Program-made: the position numbers and the translations under genes | Shown: in pieces, positions 42,999 to 49,638 of the stretch | How the letters are laid out: each line of letters opens with the position of its first letter | Numbering within the stretch: the stretch's first letter is position 1 | Notes under the pieces: generated by a model | Databases searched by the model: none | What the model saw: the letters and a program-made list of their open reading frames with translations, nothing else | What the model was told of the DNA's origin: nothing | Source: Akanthomyces muscarius | Taxonomy: Eukaryota; Ascomycota; Sordariomycetes; Hypocreales; Cordycipitaceae | DNA: 64,000 bases | Direction: 5' to 3' | Assembly (NCBI RefSeq): GCF_028009165.1 | Contig: NC_079246.1 | Location: 1,984,001 to 2,048,000 of the forward strand

Positions 42999-43792
42999 TT
43001 TCCTTTTTGCGGTGAGCATCTGCTGCCCCCGGGGTTCTTGGTCAAGTTGAGAAGTGAAAGGGTTGAGAGACGACGAGAAAACTGTGTATACAAGAAAAAA
43101 AAGATGAAAAATCCTTTTTGTTTGTACGCGAGAGAACCAAGATGCCGTTACATCATTCTTCTCCACATTCACGTGGGTAAAAATGAATCATTTGAGCATT
43201 TACGCCATGAGTTTGTCCGGGATCAATTGGGGCCATCTCACGACCGCCATCATTTCCGGCTCTTTACCTCTGCACGAGCTCCGATCTACGGAAGCGTATG
43301 GTTTTGCAAATCAGCAGTTGGTTCCGCCGTTGGCCCGATGTGAGGGCATTCACAGATGGCTGATCAGCAAGTGGGGGCCACGCTACGTAGCTCTGAGGCT
43401 GGGAGGAATCCGCCCAAACTGACTGGCACGCTGTTTCCGCAGAAGCCTCTGCAGTGTTTGTCAAAGTAGCCAGGCTGGCTGCTTTATTCGAATCTGTGTA
43501 TTCCAAGTTCTCAGCACAAGTGTCTCAGAGTCAGCGGCACGCGTCATCCAAAGTCGTCCAAAGTCGTATGCGGCTCTGCAAGGGCTTCAGACAGCCTTGG
43601 TTTGGCTGGAGCGGGGACGAGCTAGTCAGTCGATATGAATCGGTCGCTATTTTTACCCAATGTTGGAACTAATAAGAACAAGAAAATTTAGCCTTTCGTG
43701 TTTGGATTGTGACTTCTTACCTGTTTTGCCCAAGGCCAAGCCGTGATTGGACAGATTTGTGGCGCAGCGGCGGTAGAAAGGAGAACTGCTTT
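42999..43792. other. Spacer between the methyltransferase gene and the transposon
   Basis: No supported gene. Before insertion this was one spacer shared by the methyltransferase (leftward) and the GDP-mannose transporter (rightward). Confidence 0.55.
43784..43792. repeat. Target site duplication, left copy
   Basis: AACTGCTTT, identical to 49630-49638. Nine bases is the usual duplication length of Mutator-like elements. The next base is G on both sides, so ten is also possible, but nine leaves symmetric GTG...CAC element ends. Confidence 0.85.
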
Positions 43793-43886
43793 GTGGATGG
43801 ACATAACCTGACCATCGCTGAGCTGATAACCTGACCAGAGGCGTGTTTAGCCGGGGTTCGGCCGGCGCGCCCTTGTACCGTTACAC
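43793..43886 (+). repeat. Left terminal inverted repeat
   Basis: About 94 bp, pairing with 49532-49629. From the shared ATAACC inward the two match with few changes, mostly transitions, to the shared TTACAC. The word ATAACCTGACCA occurs twice, 23 bp apart (43803 and 43826). Confidence 0.9.
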
Positions 43887-43973
43887 ATAGTTTTTCAGCA
43901 GCCAATGAGAAGCCGCGTTGCTTTGTTGTGATCCACTCTTTATGCACGAAAAAAAATTCACGCGTACCTATTT

Positions 43974-43996
43974 GGAACCGGTTCCAGACCAGTTCC
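43974..43996. repeat. Palindromic 11-bp units near the left end
   Basis: GGAACCGGTTCC followed directly by AGACCAGTTCC. Same unit type as the arrays below. Confidence 0.7.
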
Positions 43997-44071
43997 CATC
44001 CCTTTCTTTTCTTTCTCCTTCAAGCTCTCCTCTCTTGACGATTGCGCTGCCCTCCGACCTTTCGTTCTTTG

Positions 44072-44116
44072 CGAATTAATTCACAATTGTCTCCGAACCG
44101 ATTCCGAAACAATTCC
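44072..44116 (+). promoter_or_regulatory. Phased array of four palindromic units before zinc protein A
   Basis: CGAATTAATTC, ACAATTGTCTCC, GAACCGATTCC and GAAACAATTCC follow head to tail and end three bases before the ATG at 44119. They lie within the presumed 5' leader. Role unknown; transcription-factor site or leader element are both possible. Confidence 0.6.
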
Positions 44117-44118
44117 AA

Positions 44119-45099
44119 ATGGCGCCATCATACAAGAACTCCGAGGCCTACCAGCGCTACCGCACCGCCGGCCGTCCCTCCGCAAACAAGCTGCCTGTTT
44201 TGCAGCAGAATAATGTACGTGTCTATTATTCTTTGAATAGAATCAATACTGAATCAGTTCTAATAGGATGGCCGCTTTATGATCATGTCTGGAGAGCTGT
44301 ACTGCCGCTGGCGAGAGAATGGCAGGCTCTGTGTCTATGTTAGTTCTCGAATTCCTTCAGAAATGATTCCAAACTAATTCCGATTAGGAAGACATCTTTT
44401 CAAGCGAGAGTGCGCTGCACCGGCACTACGATATGGCCCACGAGGCACTGGTTAAGGACCGTACCTCTGGCCGCAACAAAACCAAGCAGGAGATGAAGTT
44501 GCGCCGTGAGTACTGCTTTGGAATTGATTCCGTGTTGATACTGAAATATTTCCAGGCTGGTACGAGGACATTATGGAGGGCAGGAGGCCAACCTGGCTCC
44601 CGCGCAAGCCTCTGGACGGCTCTGCAGCCCCCCCGGGCGTGGCAACCTCGCCGCCTCGCCGCCGTGGTCAACACCACGATACTTCGCAGGTATTGTTTGG
44701 AATTGGTTCTGAAATAATTCCGATGCTGATGAGAAATAGTTCGCGCCGCCCTCTGATTCTGATTCGGAGGAAGAGAACGAGCCAGTCGAGTCCTCTGAGG
44801 AGGAGGAGGAGGAGGAGGAGCGGGAGATCCCCGAAGAGGTGAGTATCGCTGGAACTATAACGGAATTAATTCTGACCTGATTCCAAAAGGATCTGCACCG
44901 GCTGCCAAAGAATGACGATGGCAGCCTCGATCTGGATGCCATGCATGAGAATGCAGGCTATGTTTTCCGCACCATTCGTTGCCCACACTGCACGGCCAAT
45001 GATGATGGTAAGTTTGACTGGAATTATTCCGGAATCAATTCTGACATGATTTCCAAAGAGTGCCCTGGCCCCCTGCCCGACCCTGATTGCTCAGTTTAG
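44119..45099 (+). CDS. Transposon accessory zinc protein A
   Basis: Seven exons (44119-44214, 44267-44338, 44388-44505, 44556-44689, 44740-44838, 44890-45007, 45059-45099) close in frame to 225 residues. Part one has a zinc-ligand pattern C-x8-C-x14-H-x4-H (YCRWRENGRLC...LHRHYDMAH). A Pro/Arg-rich linker and an acidic Ser/Glu run follow. Near the end is C-x2-C-x6-C-x8-C (CPHCTANDDEC...PDC). Both patterns are shared with zinc protein B at the other end. The frame continues beyond the TAG at 45097-45099 into a Ser-Glu repeat ending at 45201, so the stop may be a recent nonsense change. A DNA-binding or regulatory role for transposition is inferred. Confidence 0.7.
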
Positions 45100-45193
45100 A
45101 AAACGCACCAGGGTCGAGGCCTGGAATGGCCCGATTCGAGCGAGAGTGAGAGTGAGAGCGAGAGCGAGAGCGAGAGCTCTGACGAGGATATGG

Positions 45194-45240
45194 AGGATTG
45201 ATTCCGAATTGATTCCGAATTATCGCAGAGATAATTCGAA
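45194..45240. repeat. Phased palindromic units after zinc protein A
   Basis: AGGATTGATTCC, GAATTGATTCC, GAATTATCGC and AGAGATAATTC in a row, starting at the second stop of gene A. Confidence 0.65.
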
Positions 45241-45359
45241 GAACGGCGTTTTGTTTTTTTATATACCAGGGAAAGATTCCCAATGAATGAATATGTTGGC
45301 TTTTTGTAAAAGAAACTTTATTTGTAAAAACTGTGAGAAGATTGATAAGATTTCACTGT

Positions 45360-45415
45360 GGAACTGATTCGGAACCGGTTCTACACTCGTTCCGGACTGG
45401 TTCCAGACCGGTTAG
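45360..45415 (+). promoter_or_regulatory. Phased array of five units upstream of the transposase
   Basis: GGAACTGATTC, GGAACCGGTTCT, ACACTCGTTCC, GGACTGGTTCC and AGACCGGTTAG abut with lengths 11, 12, 11, 11, 11. The array ends about 85 bases before the transposase ATG. A pyrimidine-rich leader follows it. Confidence 0.65.
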
Positions 45416-45499
45416 TAAGCAACTTTTTTGAATACTTTTTTTTTTTCAACTTCCTCAACACTCTTCCTCTTTTCCTCCTTCTATAACACAACCAAAGTT

Positions 45500-48400
45500 A
45501 TGGAAACTAATTCGGAACCACATTTATATACTCTAACAGGGTCTACTACCCTAGAGGATAATAATTCGTCACATTTACGTGTTGAAACAATCTTTTATTC
45601 ACCTTTAATTCCTGATTATCCTTCTACAAGCTTATCTGGAATTGCTTATATTATTCCAACAAATTCACTTCAACAAGAGGATATAATCCAACCTTGGAAT
45701 ACAGTATGTTTCTATATCATTTATTAACTTATTTAGAATTAATTCTAATTTACTTTCTATTAGATTCAATACTGTTCAGCCCGCAAGATACCTGGAAAGA
45801 AGTCTTCAGTTACTATCTTCCATGGTAGACCTTGTTTTCGTTATCAACGCACTTGTCAAGGTGGACAAATTTGTGAATTTTTCCGAAATATCACTTCTTG
45901 GAACCATTCAGAAGTTAATTCGGAATTATTTCAAAAACTATCAAGACTTCAAAAAGAAGCTGAATTAAATTCAGTTAAAAATAAGGCTATTACGTTAGTT
46001 TTTCTTTTATTTATTCTCTTATTCCTCTTTTATTAATAGATATAATAGGTGGGCACATGCCCAGTTAAAGGCCTTTTCCCATCCAAATCAACGAGGTTGT
46101 AATCCTCGAAGAGATACTTGTCGGTTAATATTATATATAACTGATTTAAGTGTGAGTTTTATTTCTAAATTAATTCTTAACTAGTTCTAATTTATTTTTA
46201 TAGCGAATATCACACACAGCAGAAAAGCATGTATGCTGTTCTCATTTTCAGACAGTACCAACAGCCTCTTTTGAGCTACATTATTTTACTATATGCCCTT
46301 TAGAGTATCAAGAATATTCTAATCTTATAGAGGCTATTTTTAATAATGAGGCTCTTAATGAGGAAGATTCTTGTTATGCTATACACTCAACAAGACGGAA
46401 AAAGAAAACTTGTGGTAAGTTTATTTAGAATTATTTCGAAATTAGTACTAATATATTTCTCACTTAGATATGAATCACTTACAACGCCAAGGAAGACTAC
46501 AACCAGTACATTGCTCTGTTATTTTTAATTTCCTGCTGCCTATTGGTAGTGATTCTTCTTTCCCAGGAATTATTATTACTTCTCATGGAATTCACTCTCA
46601 TCCTCCAATTGCTCCATCAATTATACCAGCTTCAATTACAGCACAGCTATATACTCTTTTACTCCGGATTAAGGGTAAAACTACCTCAATTAGTAAGTTT
46701 CTAACTCTTTCTAAATTAATTCTAAACTATTTCCTAACTATTTCTAGTCCCTTTTCTAGCGAACCCACATGTTCGTGAATTCCTTACAAGCTATGGGGCT
46801 TTATCTTTTACAGAAATCCATCTAGCATTTGCAAATATGGATAGAATAAAAGCACTTATGACTAAAGTGCTATTAATTCATAATCCAGCTGGTGCTGATC
46901 GGGTTGCTACACAGTTAGCCTATTATAATCAACCAGAGTCATCAAGAGTAAGTTGATACTTTATATTTATTTCGAAATTAATTCCATACTAATTCTAATA
47001 TGTTTTAGTATATCCAATATTTTGAGGATAATGGTGAAGATTATTTAGCTATTTGTTTCTTTCAAGAACAAGCTAAATTATTTCAAGATCAAAAGGTTAT
47101 AACCTTTCAAATGGATGCAAATTATAAGCATCGATTTGGACAACAACATGTGGAATTAATCTGGGCTTATTACTCAGATAATGCAAATAAAAGTAAGTTC
47201 TATCTTGAATTAATACAGAATTAATTCTAATATATCTTAAAGGTATTACACTTTTACGCGCCTATTATAATAACGAGGGTGCAAATACTATTGAATTTAT
47301 ATTCAAAAAAGTACATGAAATCTTCTACCAACGATATAACTTCACTTTAAAGTGGAATTATTTACATGGTGAAGGTTTAATTGGAGTTACAATGGACCAG
47401 GCATGGGATGGTATTAAAGGTAAGTTACATATTAATTATTAAGAGTTCCGAATTGATTCTAATCTATTTAGGATTTGGTGTATATCTACAATCTCTTGAT
47501 ACACAACAACGAGGTTGGGAATGGCATTGTTTAAATGTTATTAGATTTTGCCTAGTTCATTTTGAACGTGGTATAAGTCGTATTTGTGGAGAACATGCCT
47601 CTCGTGCTCCTAATTCTTTATATGGGCAGATGGCTTCTATTTTAGCTGTTTCTTCAGCTGAAAGTTATAGCCGTATCTTACGAGGGCTAATGTGTAAGTT
47701 ATTTCTTATTTATTTCAGAATTAATTCTAATTTGCTTTATTATTAGTTCATCAACGTCAAGATGTACGAAATTGGGCTATACATAAAAGCTCAGCTATTC
47801 TACAATCTGGTTTAAACCCACATTGTAGTCTAATTCGAAGAGAGTTTTGGAATTTAATGTCTAGGCATACAAATATTGTTGAAGCGCTTCACCAACAATC
47901 ATATGTGTGGACTGGACGTTTTTTACCACTACTTAACTGTATTGAGAGGTATACCATTGAACTATTACTAAATTAGTTTATAACTAACTCTAAATCAGTT
48001 CGAAAATACTTGATCGAGTTATTATGCAAGCTTTAGCTGCAGCATCAGGGTATAATTTAACCCTATCATATACCGATAATAGCTTTCATTCAAGGGTTCA
48101 AAGACAGGTTAAAAGAACAAGTAAGTATTTTCTTTTAACTAAAAATACTTTAATATTAATTCTAAAATAGATATAAGCCGGGATACTCGGTTTAGACAGC
48201 GTTCTAATACTCCTCTACGAGATAATTCTCGAGTTCGATCTAGAGTAAATTCTCAGATTAACTCAGTTACTAATTCAAGAGAAAACTCTAGAAATAGTTC
48301 TGAAGTAAATCCTGGAATTAATTCCGATTTAACTCAAAGAGAAATACAACCAACAGCTTTATCAACTATTGCTTCTTTAGCACTTTTACAACGTGCAACC

Positions 48401-48601
48401 TCCTCAGGAACACTTCCAAATCAACAACAAAGGTATTATATTTTTATTTTTATAATAATATCTTATTAATTTTATCTTAGAAGACCTCAGCTTACTAGTC
48501 TTTCCTCTGATGTAGATTTAAGGCAGCTAGTTCAACAACAAGCTGAACAGATTGTATTATTACAACAACAACTTGAGAATCAGTCTAGAACTAGTTCCTA
48601 A
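45500..48601 (+). CDS. Mutator-like transposase, 13 exons
   Basis: Exons: 45500-45703, 45764-45993, 46040-46151, 46204-46414, 46468-46692, 46748-46947, 47009-47192, 47243-47419, 47472-47693, 47747-47948, 47999-48120, 48171-48432, 48481-48601. All phases match, giving 823 residues with no internal stop. An N-terminal Cys-rich region (YCSARKIP...RPCFRYQRTCQGGQIC, then GCNPRRDTC and HVCCSH) suits a zinc-binding DNA-recognition domain. The catalytic core has FQMDANYK (Asp near 430), GVTMDQAWDGIKG (Asp near 507) and the MULE-type C-x2-H in RFCLVHFERG (541-544). The tail has xxNS tetrapeptide repeats and a Gln-rich coiled coil. It should cut and rejoin element ends. The third catalytic acid was not pinned down. 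Confidence 0.85.
48217..48335 (+). repeat. In-frame 12-bp version of the palindromic unit, coding xxNS repeats
   Basis: About nine units such as TAGAGTAAATTC, AGTTACTAATTC and TAGAAATAGTTC run at 12-bp spacing in the transposase exon 12. They encode RVNS, QINS, VTNS, RENS and so on. The noncoding arrays of the element run at about 11 bp. Confidence 0.65.
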
Positions 48602-48728
48602 CTAAATTTTATTATAGTAAAATCTATATTCTTTATTACTTCTTTACTAATAGTAATAAATAAAGTAATATATTAAGAGTTATAGTATTAATATATAAAA
48701 GTATAATCTAATTATATTAAATTAATTC

Positions 48729-49359
48729 CTAATTATTACTTAAAGGTTCCTCAAACCTCTCCCAGATAATACAGTCCTTATCATAAAAGTTAGGAGGACA
48801 TTTTCTTCCTTTTTCCTTACATAATACACAATTATTTGGGTTTCTCCCACTTTCAAGAATTAATTTTGAAATATTAACCTTTTTATTCCGAAATATCGGT
48901 GCAGGGAGCTTTATAGCCTTTTGGTTATTATAATGAATTAAAGGCTGTTGCTCTTCATCCATTCCTTGTGATAGTGGGGAAGGTTGATTTGGAGTTGGAA
49001 TTAATTCCTGAGTAATTTAAAAGTTAATAAGAATTAATAAAGAAATAAATATAATATACCTTTTTAAATTGATTATACCACTTTAGTATTATAACCTCAC
49101 GGCTTGCATTTATTCTTCCAACTGATGGTGTGTAAATATCTACACCATGTCTTTTGATATGCTTGCGTAGGTTTGGTGTAGAGGTATAGGGTAGTGCATG
49201 TATACACGGTTCAGAATCAATTCGGTATCGACAATACACCTCTCCAGGGTAGATAATAGCCTTGCCATCACAGTATTCATACTCTGGTAGATTATCTGGG
49301 CGTATTCCGTTATTTTGATAGGCAATATAGCCTGCAGTTGTCTGATAAAGAGGTGGCAT
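48729..49359 (-). CDS. Transposon accessory zinc protein B (paralogue of A)
   Basis: Exons 49359-49060 and 49007-48729 give 192 residues. The intron has donor GTATAT and acceptor CTCAG. It shares with protein A the opening M-x-P-x-Y, the GE-x-YCR segment, the ligand pattern C-x8-C-x14-H-x3-H (YCRYRIDSEPC...LRKHIKRH), a GR...WY segment, and the C-terminal C-x2-C-x6-C-x8-C (CVLCKEKGRKC...KDC). It lacks A's Pro/Arg linker, acidic run and most introns and is far more AT-rich. It reads toward the transposase from the right end, mirroring A. Function not known; paired DNA-binding regulators or transpososome subunits are the obvious candidates. Confidence 0.75.
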
Positions 49360-49360
49360 T

Positions 49361-49409
49361 AGAATTGATTTCGTGTTGTTATTGAATTCTTTCCGAAAGA
49401 GTTCTGAAA
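49361..49409 (-). promoter_or_regulatory. Phased array of four units before zinc protein B
   Basis: On the minus strand: AGAACTCTTTC, GGAAAGAATTC, AATAACAACAC, GAAATCAATTC, ending two bases before the ATG at 49359. It mirrors the array before gene A. Confidence 0.6.
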
Positions 49410-49531
49410 GCGCTCTGTATTGATTACGTTAAGTACACGTTAGTATCATATTAGCTGCGTAAGTGCATAAATATGCAATATCTACATGTGATATGCTAGT
49501 AATGAGGTGGCCCGTGGTGATAAGTGGAGAC

Positions 49532-49629
49532 GTGTAAGGCACAGTACAAGGACTCGCCGGCCGGACCCCGGCTAAACACACCTCTGGTCAGGCTATCAGC
49601 TCAGCGATGGTCGGGTTATCTATGAGCAC
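49532..49629 (-). repeat. Right terminal inverted repeat
   Basis: About 98 bp; its reverse complement matches the left repeat from GTG through ATAACC..GACCATCGCTGAGC and on to TTACAC. The inner GATAACCTGACC word is GATAGCCTGACC here. Confidence 0.9.
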
Positions 49630-49638
49630 AACTGCTTT
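49630..49638. repeat. Target site duplication, right copy
   Basis: AACTGCTTT, exact match to 43784-43792. Confidence 0.85.

Follow-up and report, generated by a model that had tools for sequence, protein, structure and literature searches.

The closest described counterparts of the locus reported here are the VANDAL transposons of Arabidopsis and their VANC proteins. In the available portions of the reports, VANC21 binds YAGTATTAY motifs arrayed in the introns, intergenic DNA and terminal DNA of VANDAL21 (PMC5735166; PMC10398659), both motif binding and demethylation have been demonstrated for VANC (PMC5735166, PMC10398659), and VANC6 and VANDAL6 use other motifs than VANC21 and VANDAL21 (PMC5735166). 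Our analysis concerns a 64,000-nucleotide stretch of the fungus Akanthomyces muscarius (contig NC_079246.1, positions 1,984,001 to 2,048,000; hereafter the window), in which a first-pass annotation had noticed a transposon pervaded by an 11-bp palindromic unit. This transposon (the window element) and a second one elsewhere in the genome (element 2) were each found to carry a short palindromic word, densest in the modelled introns and other noncoding DNA. Judging from the sequences, each word is a likely element-specific address for the predicted zinc-finger proteins that the same element encodes, probably serving to oppose silencing. We put the probability of this reading at about one half. 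According to the available text of its report, the published assembly comprises 12 contigs and 36.2 Mb, and RNA sequencing was used for its gene models (PMC10323777).

The 11-bp unit of the window element

The window element spans 43793-49629 (5,837 bp; no strand assigned), as delimited by inverted repeats and a target duplication. The inverted repeats (43803-43881 and 49541-49619; 79 nt) are 91% identical, and the 9-bp target duplications, AACTGCTTT, lie at 43784-43792 and 49630-49638. There are two copies in the genome. The second copy, located on another contig, is 99.5% identical and has a different 9-bp target duplication, GTACCTACT. The copies differ by four base substitutions, all of which are transitions. 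In the second copy, the transposase gene also contains a tandem duplication of 20 bp, at the position corresponding to 48044 of the window, and 6 bp are deleted near the left end of the copy.

When a motif was fitted to the noncoding DNA of the window element, the result was GAAYYRRTTC. This even palindrome of 10 bp gives, together with a 1-bp spacer, a period of 11 bp. The palindromic 11-bp period of the first-pass annotation was retained, while the odd centre it had given the unit was better replaced by this form. All five arrays that it had named were found. In a motif scan, array 1 (two phased units) was located at 43975-43995, array 2 (four phased positions, one of them weak) at 44073-44115, stopping 3 bases short of the gene A ATG, array 3 at 45195-45237, downstream of gene A, and array 4 at 45361-45414, between gene A and the transposase gene T, all on the forward strand. 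Array 5, at 49362-49404 on the reverse strand, stops 2 bases short of the gene B ATG. The units were counted in the same DNA that had supplied the consensus.

Autocorrelation, which had been suggested as a check on the period, showed a signal beyond that of the AT-rich background. In 1,563 noncoding bases of the element, compared with dinucleotide shuffles, the z-scores were 15.0 at lag 11, 7.1 at lag 22 and 4.3 at lag 33. No lag-11 signal was seen in the exons of the three genes (z of -0.7 to 0.6) or in the host flanks of 13.7 and 14.3 kb (z of -0.6 and 0.0); the transposase exons gave z of 3.8 at lag 12. Chance from an AT-rich background was rejected by the dinucleotide shuffles, and ten other palindromic consensuses of the same form gave 4-35 noncoding matches as against 52. 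Among 55 fitted sites, 34 spacings were shorter than 30 bp, namely 29 at 11 bp, two at 12 and three at 22, a count that leans towards 11 because flanks are part of the fitted matrix and sites had to be at least 9 apart. When the bare core was counted at up to two mismatches with no minimum spacing, the element had 24 pairs spaced at 11 bp, along with 12 at 22 bp and 9 at 33 bp; no pair at 11 bp was seen among the 174 matches of the core to host DNA in the 64-kb window. At up to one mismatch, there were 41 matches in the 5.8 kb of the element and 12 in 58.2 kb of host DNA. The first-pass annotation had noticed no such arrays in the host genes of the window.

Across the 36.2-Mb genome, two phased units at up to two mismatches (forward pattern) were found 29 times; each of the two copies of the element accounted for 13 of these, and the other 3 lay elsewhere. 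This near-confinement (26/29) supports the address reading. At 0 or 1 mismatch, all 14 phased pairs lay inside the element copies. The same pattern read backwards, used as a control, gave 13 matches genome-wide. An array for a host transcription factor was rejected, since only 3 phased matches occur elsewhere in 36 Mb. One further candidate array (L044) was also rejected, its lag-11 z being only 3.3-3.6. Three short remnants with terminal-repeat similarity to the window element (L041, L042 and L043) are otherwise different DNA and had no lag-11 window above z = 4.

The first unit at up to one mismatch begins 182 bp, and the last one stops 257 bp, from the respective end of the element, and none lies in the inverted repeats. 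Units at this level form 28 clusters with gaps of 116-311 bp, a spacing evener than random (P about 0.002 with a 100-bp minimum separation). The units had been said to occupy most of the short introns, and this was indeed the case: genes A and T together have 18 introns, of which 16 contain one at up to two mismatches and 14 at up to one (10 and 8, respectively, of the 12 introns of T). The two introns with no unit are 45994-46039 and 48433-48480. The distances from unit to donor and from unit to acceptor vary widely, and in several introns the unit runs into a branch-point-like CTAAT. The exons of T are evenly sized, the longest measuring 262 nt where random placement would give 516 (P printed as 0.0000); the same test gave P = 0.04 for gene A. 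Five of the six gene boundaries lie within 4 bp of a unit (a random interior position lies within 5 bp with P = 0.134). The miss is the stop codon of the deposited gene A model (45097-45099), about 96 bp from the nearest unit; the boundary test itself had taken the TGA of array 3 for the stop codon of gene A. In the transposase gene, one unit covers codons 2-5 and another stands just ahead of the stop codon. In gene B, the unit at 48719-48728 abuts the stop codon, and exact units occur in the coding sequence at 48998 and 49214.

Coding sequence was compared with synonymous shuffles. For T, 29 units at up to two mismatches were found as against 21.1 (reached by 2 of 500 shuffles), with four 11-bp pairs as against 0.72 (2 of 500). 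A unit-rich stretch of T located by the motif scan (48219-48335, forward strand) encodes an NSxx peptide repeat. Gene B has two exact units as against 0.38 (13 of 500), but 5 as against 4.69 at two mismatches. The suggestion that the units extend into coding sequence held only partly, for T at two mismatches and for the exact units of B; gene A and T at one mismatch showed no excess, as given below.

Gene A (44119-45099, forward strand), modelled from the reading frame and the deposited protein, encodes a predicted zinc-finger protein of 225 residues. Its six introns (44215-44266, 44339-44387, 44506-44555, 44690-44739, 44839-44889 and 45008-45058, on the same strand) each contain a unit at up to one mismatch, and the spliced product is identical to the deposited A. 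muscarius protein LMH87_000711 at 225/225 residues. An acidic reading frame containing SESES (45100-45200) follows the deposited stop codon and ends at the TGA inside array 3; it may represent an alternative 3' exon. Gene T (45500-48601, forward strand) encodes the transposase, of 823 residues, and has 12 introns. Gene B (48729-49359, reverse strand; one intron, 49008-49059) encodes a predicted zinc-finger protein of 192 residues that is paralogous to that of gene A (Smith-Waterman z = 20.5). The two proteins share, as read from their sequences, the pattern C-x8-C-x14-H-x3-4-H of a predicted zinc finger. The model of gene A matches a deposited one; the other models in this study were built from reading-frame continuity and GT-AG ends. 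The element is a mosaic in composition, with 60% G+C in the exons of gene A and about 35% in those of T and B, and units are found in both parts. Neither T nor B had a Pfam family, and A had a single acidic match, below threshold. None of 5,221 candidates from a protein database with fungi included matched T at E <=0.001, and no relative of T was found in viral contigs. The sole match in the protein search with gene A was its own deposited copy.

A second element with a different word

The only other matches of T in the genome were found at three places (32% over about 200 residues), all of them in element 2. Element 2 (G000:C2:3553373-3560903; 7.5 kb) has an inverted repeat of about 105 bp and a 9-bp duplication, AGGCACAAG. 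Over the 5.9 kb compared, five copies agree at 99-100%, and two of these have in-frame TAG codons in the transposase; a sixth copy, with 80-82% identity, carries a heavy load of mutations. One remnant, a short piece of an element 2 end recognised by terminal-repeat similarity, lies in host DNA (L067). It was rejected as a third family, since it reads as host DNA joined to this remnant.

The word of element 2, GCATATGC, occurs in 45 exact copies as against 0.11 expected. It was first noticed by eye and then ranked among all palindromic 8-mers of the element, where it came first. Outside the element, it was absent from the adjacent 8.4 kb of host DNA and present once in the 64-kb window. Pairs of the word 83-113 bp apart numbered 70 genome-wide, as against 0 for the reversed control, and among 50 of these 70 pairs, 47 lay in element 2 copies and three elsewhere. 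The spacing of exact words is about 60-120 bp around gene C and wider elsewhere in the element. At up to one mismatch, the gaps range from 58 to 351 bp and are more even than random. Words also stand close to both ends, in or beside the inverted repeats. The 11-bp phase is not a feature of element 2, which has one word pair 11 bp apart, and its copies are missing from the genome-wide matches of phased GAAYYRRTTC.

Gene C (G000:C2:3553724-3555200, forward strand) has 14 introns of 45-69 nt and short exons (16-70 nt). An exact word is present in 14/14 of these introns, at a distance of 12-40 from the donor and 12-33 from the acceptor; in addition, the start codon lies inside one copy of the word and the stop codon abuts another. 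Gene D (G000:C2:3555758-3556774, forward strand) has four introns, and the transposase gene T2 (G000:C2:3560555-3556829, reverse strand; 1,074 residues) has ten. The introns of the three genes contain the exact word in 22/28 cases and a word within one mismatch in 28/28. The intron ends were fixed by the reading frame after the words had been seen, so that some bias in this count is possible. Only 2/6 gene boundaries have an exact word within 50 bp, which indicates that placement at starts and stops is not general. In coding sequence, exact words fall in all three frames and exceed synonymous shuffles in D (4 as against 0.55) and T2 (6 as against 1.71; 0 of 1,000 shuffles in each case). These facts suggest that the DNA, rather than the protein, is kept.

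Each element encodes a transposase and two paralogous proteins with the pattern C-x8-10-C-x12-15-H-x3-4-H. The predicted zinc-finger pattern is C-x9-C-x15-H-x4-H in C and C-x10-C-x12-H-x4-H in D, and D also has a sub-threshold Pfam C2H2 match. T and T2 align along most of T with a score of 314, as against 42.8 +/- 5.1 for shuffles, and are clear homologues. They share MDANYK/IDLSFK, a D-containing stretch, CLVH/CQVH and TNIVE/TNIAE, which we take, by eye and against the signature of Mutator-like elements (MULEs), a DDE triad with C-x2-H between the second D and E, to be candidate DDE and C-x2-H positions. The predicted zinc-finger proteins are strongly alike within each element (z of 20.5 for A and B, 16.1 for the paralogues C and D) but barely alike across the elements (z of 2.1-3.0, the score being reached by 7 to 25 of 500 shuffles). 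The words of the two elements share nothing. Conservation of the catalytic gene alongside change in both the word and its putative reader is as expected of a self-recognition system.

The introns that carry the words are otherwise unrelated where compared. With the words removed, 0/120 intron pairs of the window element exceeded z = 4 (33 of 153 pairs were dropped as too short), and so did 0/91 pairs for gene C, the introns of D and T2 being outside this comparison. Two introns of gene A are 79% alike.

The first-pass annotation had proposed that the units may be bound by zinc proteins of the element itself, or may form a code for self-recognition, and had pointed to related elements as a check. 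Element 2 has no 11-bp array, yet a different palindrome stands in the same kinds of places. The proposed role is favoured by the near-confinement of the first word and by the word and zinc-finger pair that element 2 has of its own. The idea that an 11-bp phase puts all units on the same DNA face holds for the window element and is not general.

The proposed address and other explanations

In the reading that we prefer, the word would be bound by the element's own predicted zinc-finger pair, probably as dimers. The tiling would let these proteins coat their own element and little else, and in the window element the 11-bp phase would place the units on the same side of the double helix, so that binding could be cooperative. 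The numerous and very short introns would have been retained as carriers, through which every coding stretch receives a site. We are less confident of the last step, in which the purpose would be to counteract silencing by the host, in the manner of the Arabidopsis VANC proteins and their VANDAL elements. Only tentatively, and with less confidence than in the address itself, do we extend this to a general statement, namely that fungal MULE-like transposons may have independently evolved an address system in which each family carries its own palindrome over its full length, has dozens of tiny introns chiefly as carriers that leave every stretch near a site, and encodes a fast-evolving zinc-finger pair that reads this palindrome alone and shields the element from silencing.

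Several observations weigh against this reading. No excess over synonymous shuffles was found for coding units of T at one mismatch (5 as against 4.15) or of gene A (1 as against 1.0), and the coding sequence of gene C contains no exact word. The largest gap between words in element 2 is not unusual (P = 0.38). Covariation between the palindrome halves of the window element was not significant (P about 0.09), and hairpins were rejected on the same result. No Pfam zinc-finger family passes the cut-off for A, B, C or D, and the model predicted by AlphaFold for exon 1 of gene B could not be used, its mean predicted local distance difference test score (pLDDT) being 36. The sixth copy of element 2 (G000:C1:6923411-6929369) is also relevant here. 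In one aligned block of about 4.3 kb, 756/762 substitutions are G>A or C>T, a pattern like that of repeat-induced point mutation (RIP). The 17 words aligned in this block now read GTATATAC in 12 cases, ATATATAC in three and GCATATAC in two; none is intact, and the word therefore did not protect this copy. Finally, the whole case is made by sequence analysis of one genome and two families.

Other explanations of the words should be considered. The zinc-finger proteins could be ordinary transcription factors for the three genes of their own element, with no role against silencing. The arrays of the window element lie upstream of, or at, all three start codons, and a word encloses that of gene C in element 2. 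The sites, however, run evenly through introns, 3' ends and coding sequence, which exceeds what a promoter switch would need, and neither D nor T2 has an exact word less than about 50 bp from its start. We regard this explanation as unlikely, though it deserves attention. Transposases commonly bind repeated subterminal motifs, and the words might be bound by the transposase or by a transposition complex; a role for the transposase had also been suggested at first. While the words of element 2 near both ends fit this idea, it is made less likely by the window element, where no unit at up to one mismatch lies inside 182 bp of an end. Recognition of the ends, moreover, needs no even tiling of the interior and the introns, and the transposases are conserved while the words are completely different. 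Such a role seems to us distinctly improbable.

A signal for splicing or translation of the element's genes, the leader or splicing role of the first-pass annotation, would agree with the presence of a word in 16/18 and 28/28 modelled introns and with the units that run into CTAAT. It is nevertheless disfavoured, because the distances to the splice sites vary both in gene C and in the window element, and the words are found outside introns and in all coding frames as well. In addition, two window-element introns have no unit, two elements of one host have different words, and the intron models, except for that of gene A, are our own. We consider it very unlikely. Little probability indeed is left for functionless repeats, whether a residue of tandem slippage, which could make tandem 11-bp units, or copies of one mobile, introner-like intron, as the likeness of the two gene A introns might suggest. 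The introns compared without their words are unrelated, and isolated, evenly spaced words in all three coding frames are not slippage. It is hardly credible, lastly, that the 11-bp phase serves direct pairing of duplexes, as proposed for homology recognition in RIP. The period does equal that given in the available text on Neurospora RIP (PMC4858203), and RIP-like mutation is present in this genome, as the sixth copy of element 2 attests. That same mutation, however, erased 17/17 aligned words, and element 2 has the same architecture with no 11-bp phase. Single arrays are also only about 21-54 bp long, as against the several hundred base pairs described in that text (PMC4858203).

If the address reading is true, sequence-specific self-recognition by transposons would not be a quirk of one plant lineage but would have arisen in fungi with unrelated proteins. 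Introns would have an unexpected job, the carrying of protein-binding sites inside coding sequence. The elements would provide compact pairs of protein and word whose specificity could be measured directly, and the escape of selfish DNA from silencing without disturbing the host would become testable in haploid fungi.

Comparison with known systems

A literature search for such a system in fungi, made over titles and the openings of abstracts and mostly outside subscription papers, found none. A run of three phased GAAYYRRTTC units was matched exactly in just two of the viral contigs (IMG/VR), at L058:11424-11466 and L059:5129-5160. Both are tandem 11-bp palindromic units, in L059 inside a predicted gene. 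The viral units may be iteron-like, and their likeness to the fungal unit is probably convergent.

Like introners and sister stwintrons, as far as the available text describes them (PMC9860276, PMC8469720), the present elements have many short introns that share sequence. Unlike introners, it is only the word that is shared, and the remainder of the compared introns is unrelated. The sequence recognised in RIP homology pairing, with an 11- or 12-bp periodicity over several hundred bp in the available text (PMC4858203), likewise differs from the short arrays found here.

The two elements resemble MULEs in their long inverted repeats and in their 9-bp duplications. Members of the MULE superfamily have long terminal inverted repeats and target duplications of 8-11 bp. 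The very many short introns and the tiled word of both elements set them apart. Since Pfam at E <=1 returned 0 families for T and T2 and no MULE profile, the elements are called MULE-like only. The TnpA protein of maize En/Spm binds a repeated 12-bp subterminal motif of its own element and affects methylation. In contrast to these subterminal motifs, the words described here span the whole element, introns included.

The domains of VANC, DUF1985 and DUF287 (names from the available text of PMC5735166), were absent from the Pfam matches of A, B, C and D at E <=1. Because of this absence, the present system would be one that works like VANC and VANDAL and is not a member of that family. The fungal proteins, which show a predicted zinc-finger pattern, are unrelated to the plant VANC. 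The words also differ from VANDAL motifs in that they are palindromic, are either phased at 11 bp or singly and evenly spaced, and occur in coding sequence as well. In other respects, the likeness to VANDAL, as far as the available reports describe it, is close. In both cases, a DNA transposon encodes a transposase together with further genes, and an element-specific short motif that is dense in noncoding DNA differs between related families while the transposase is better conserved.

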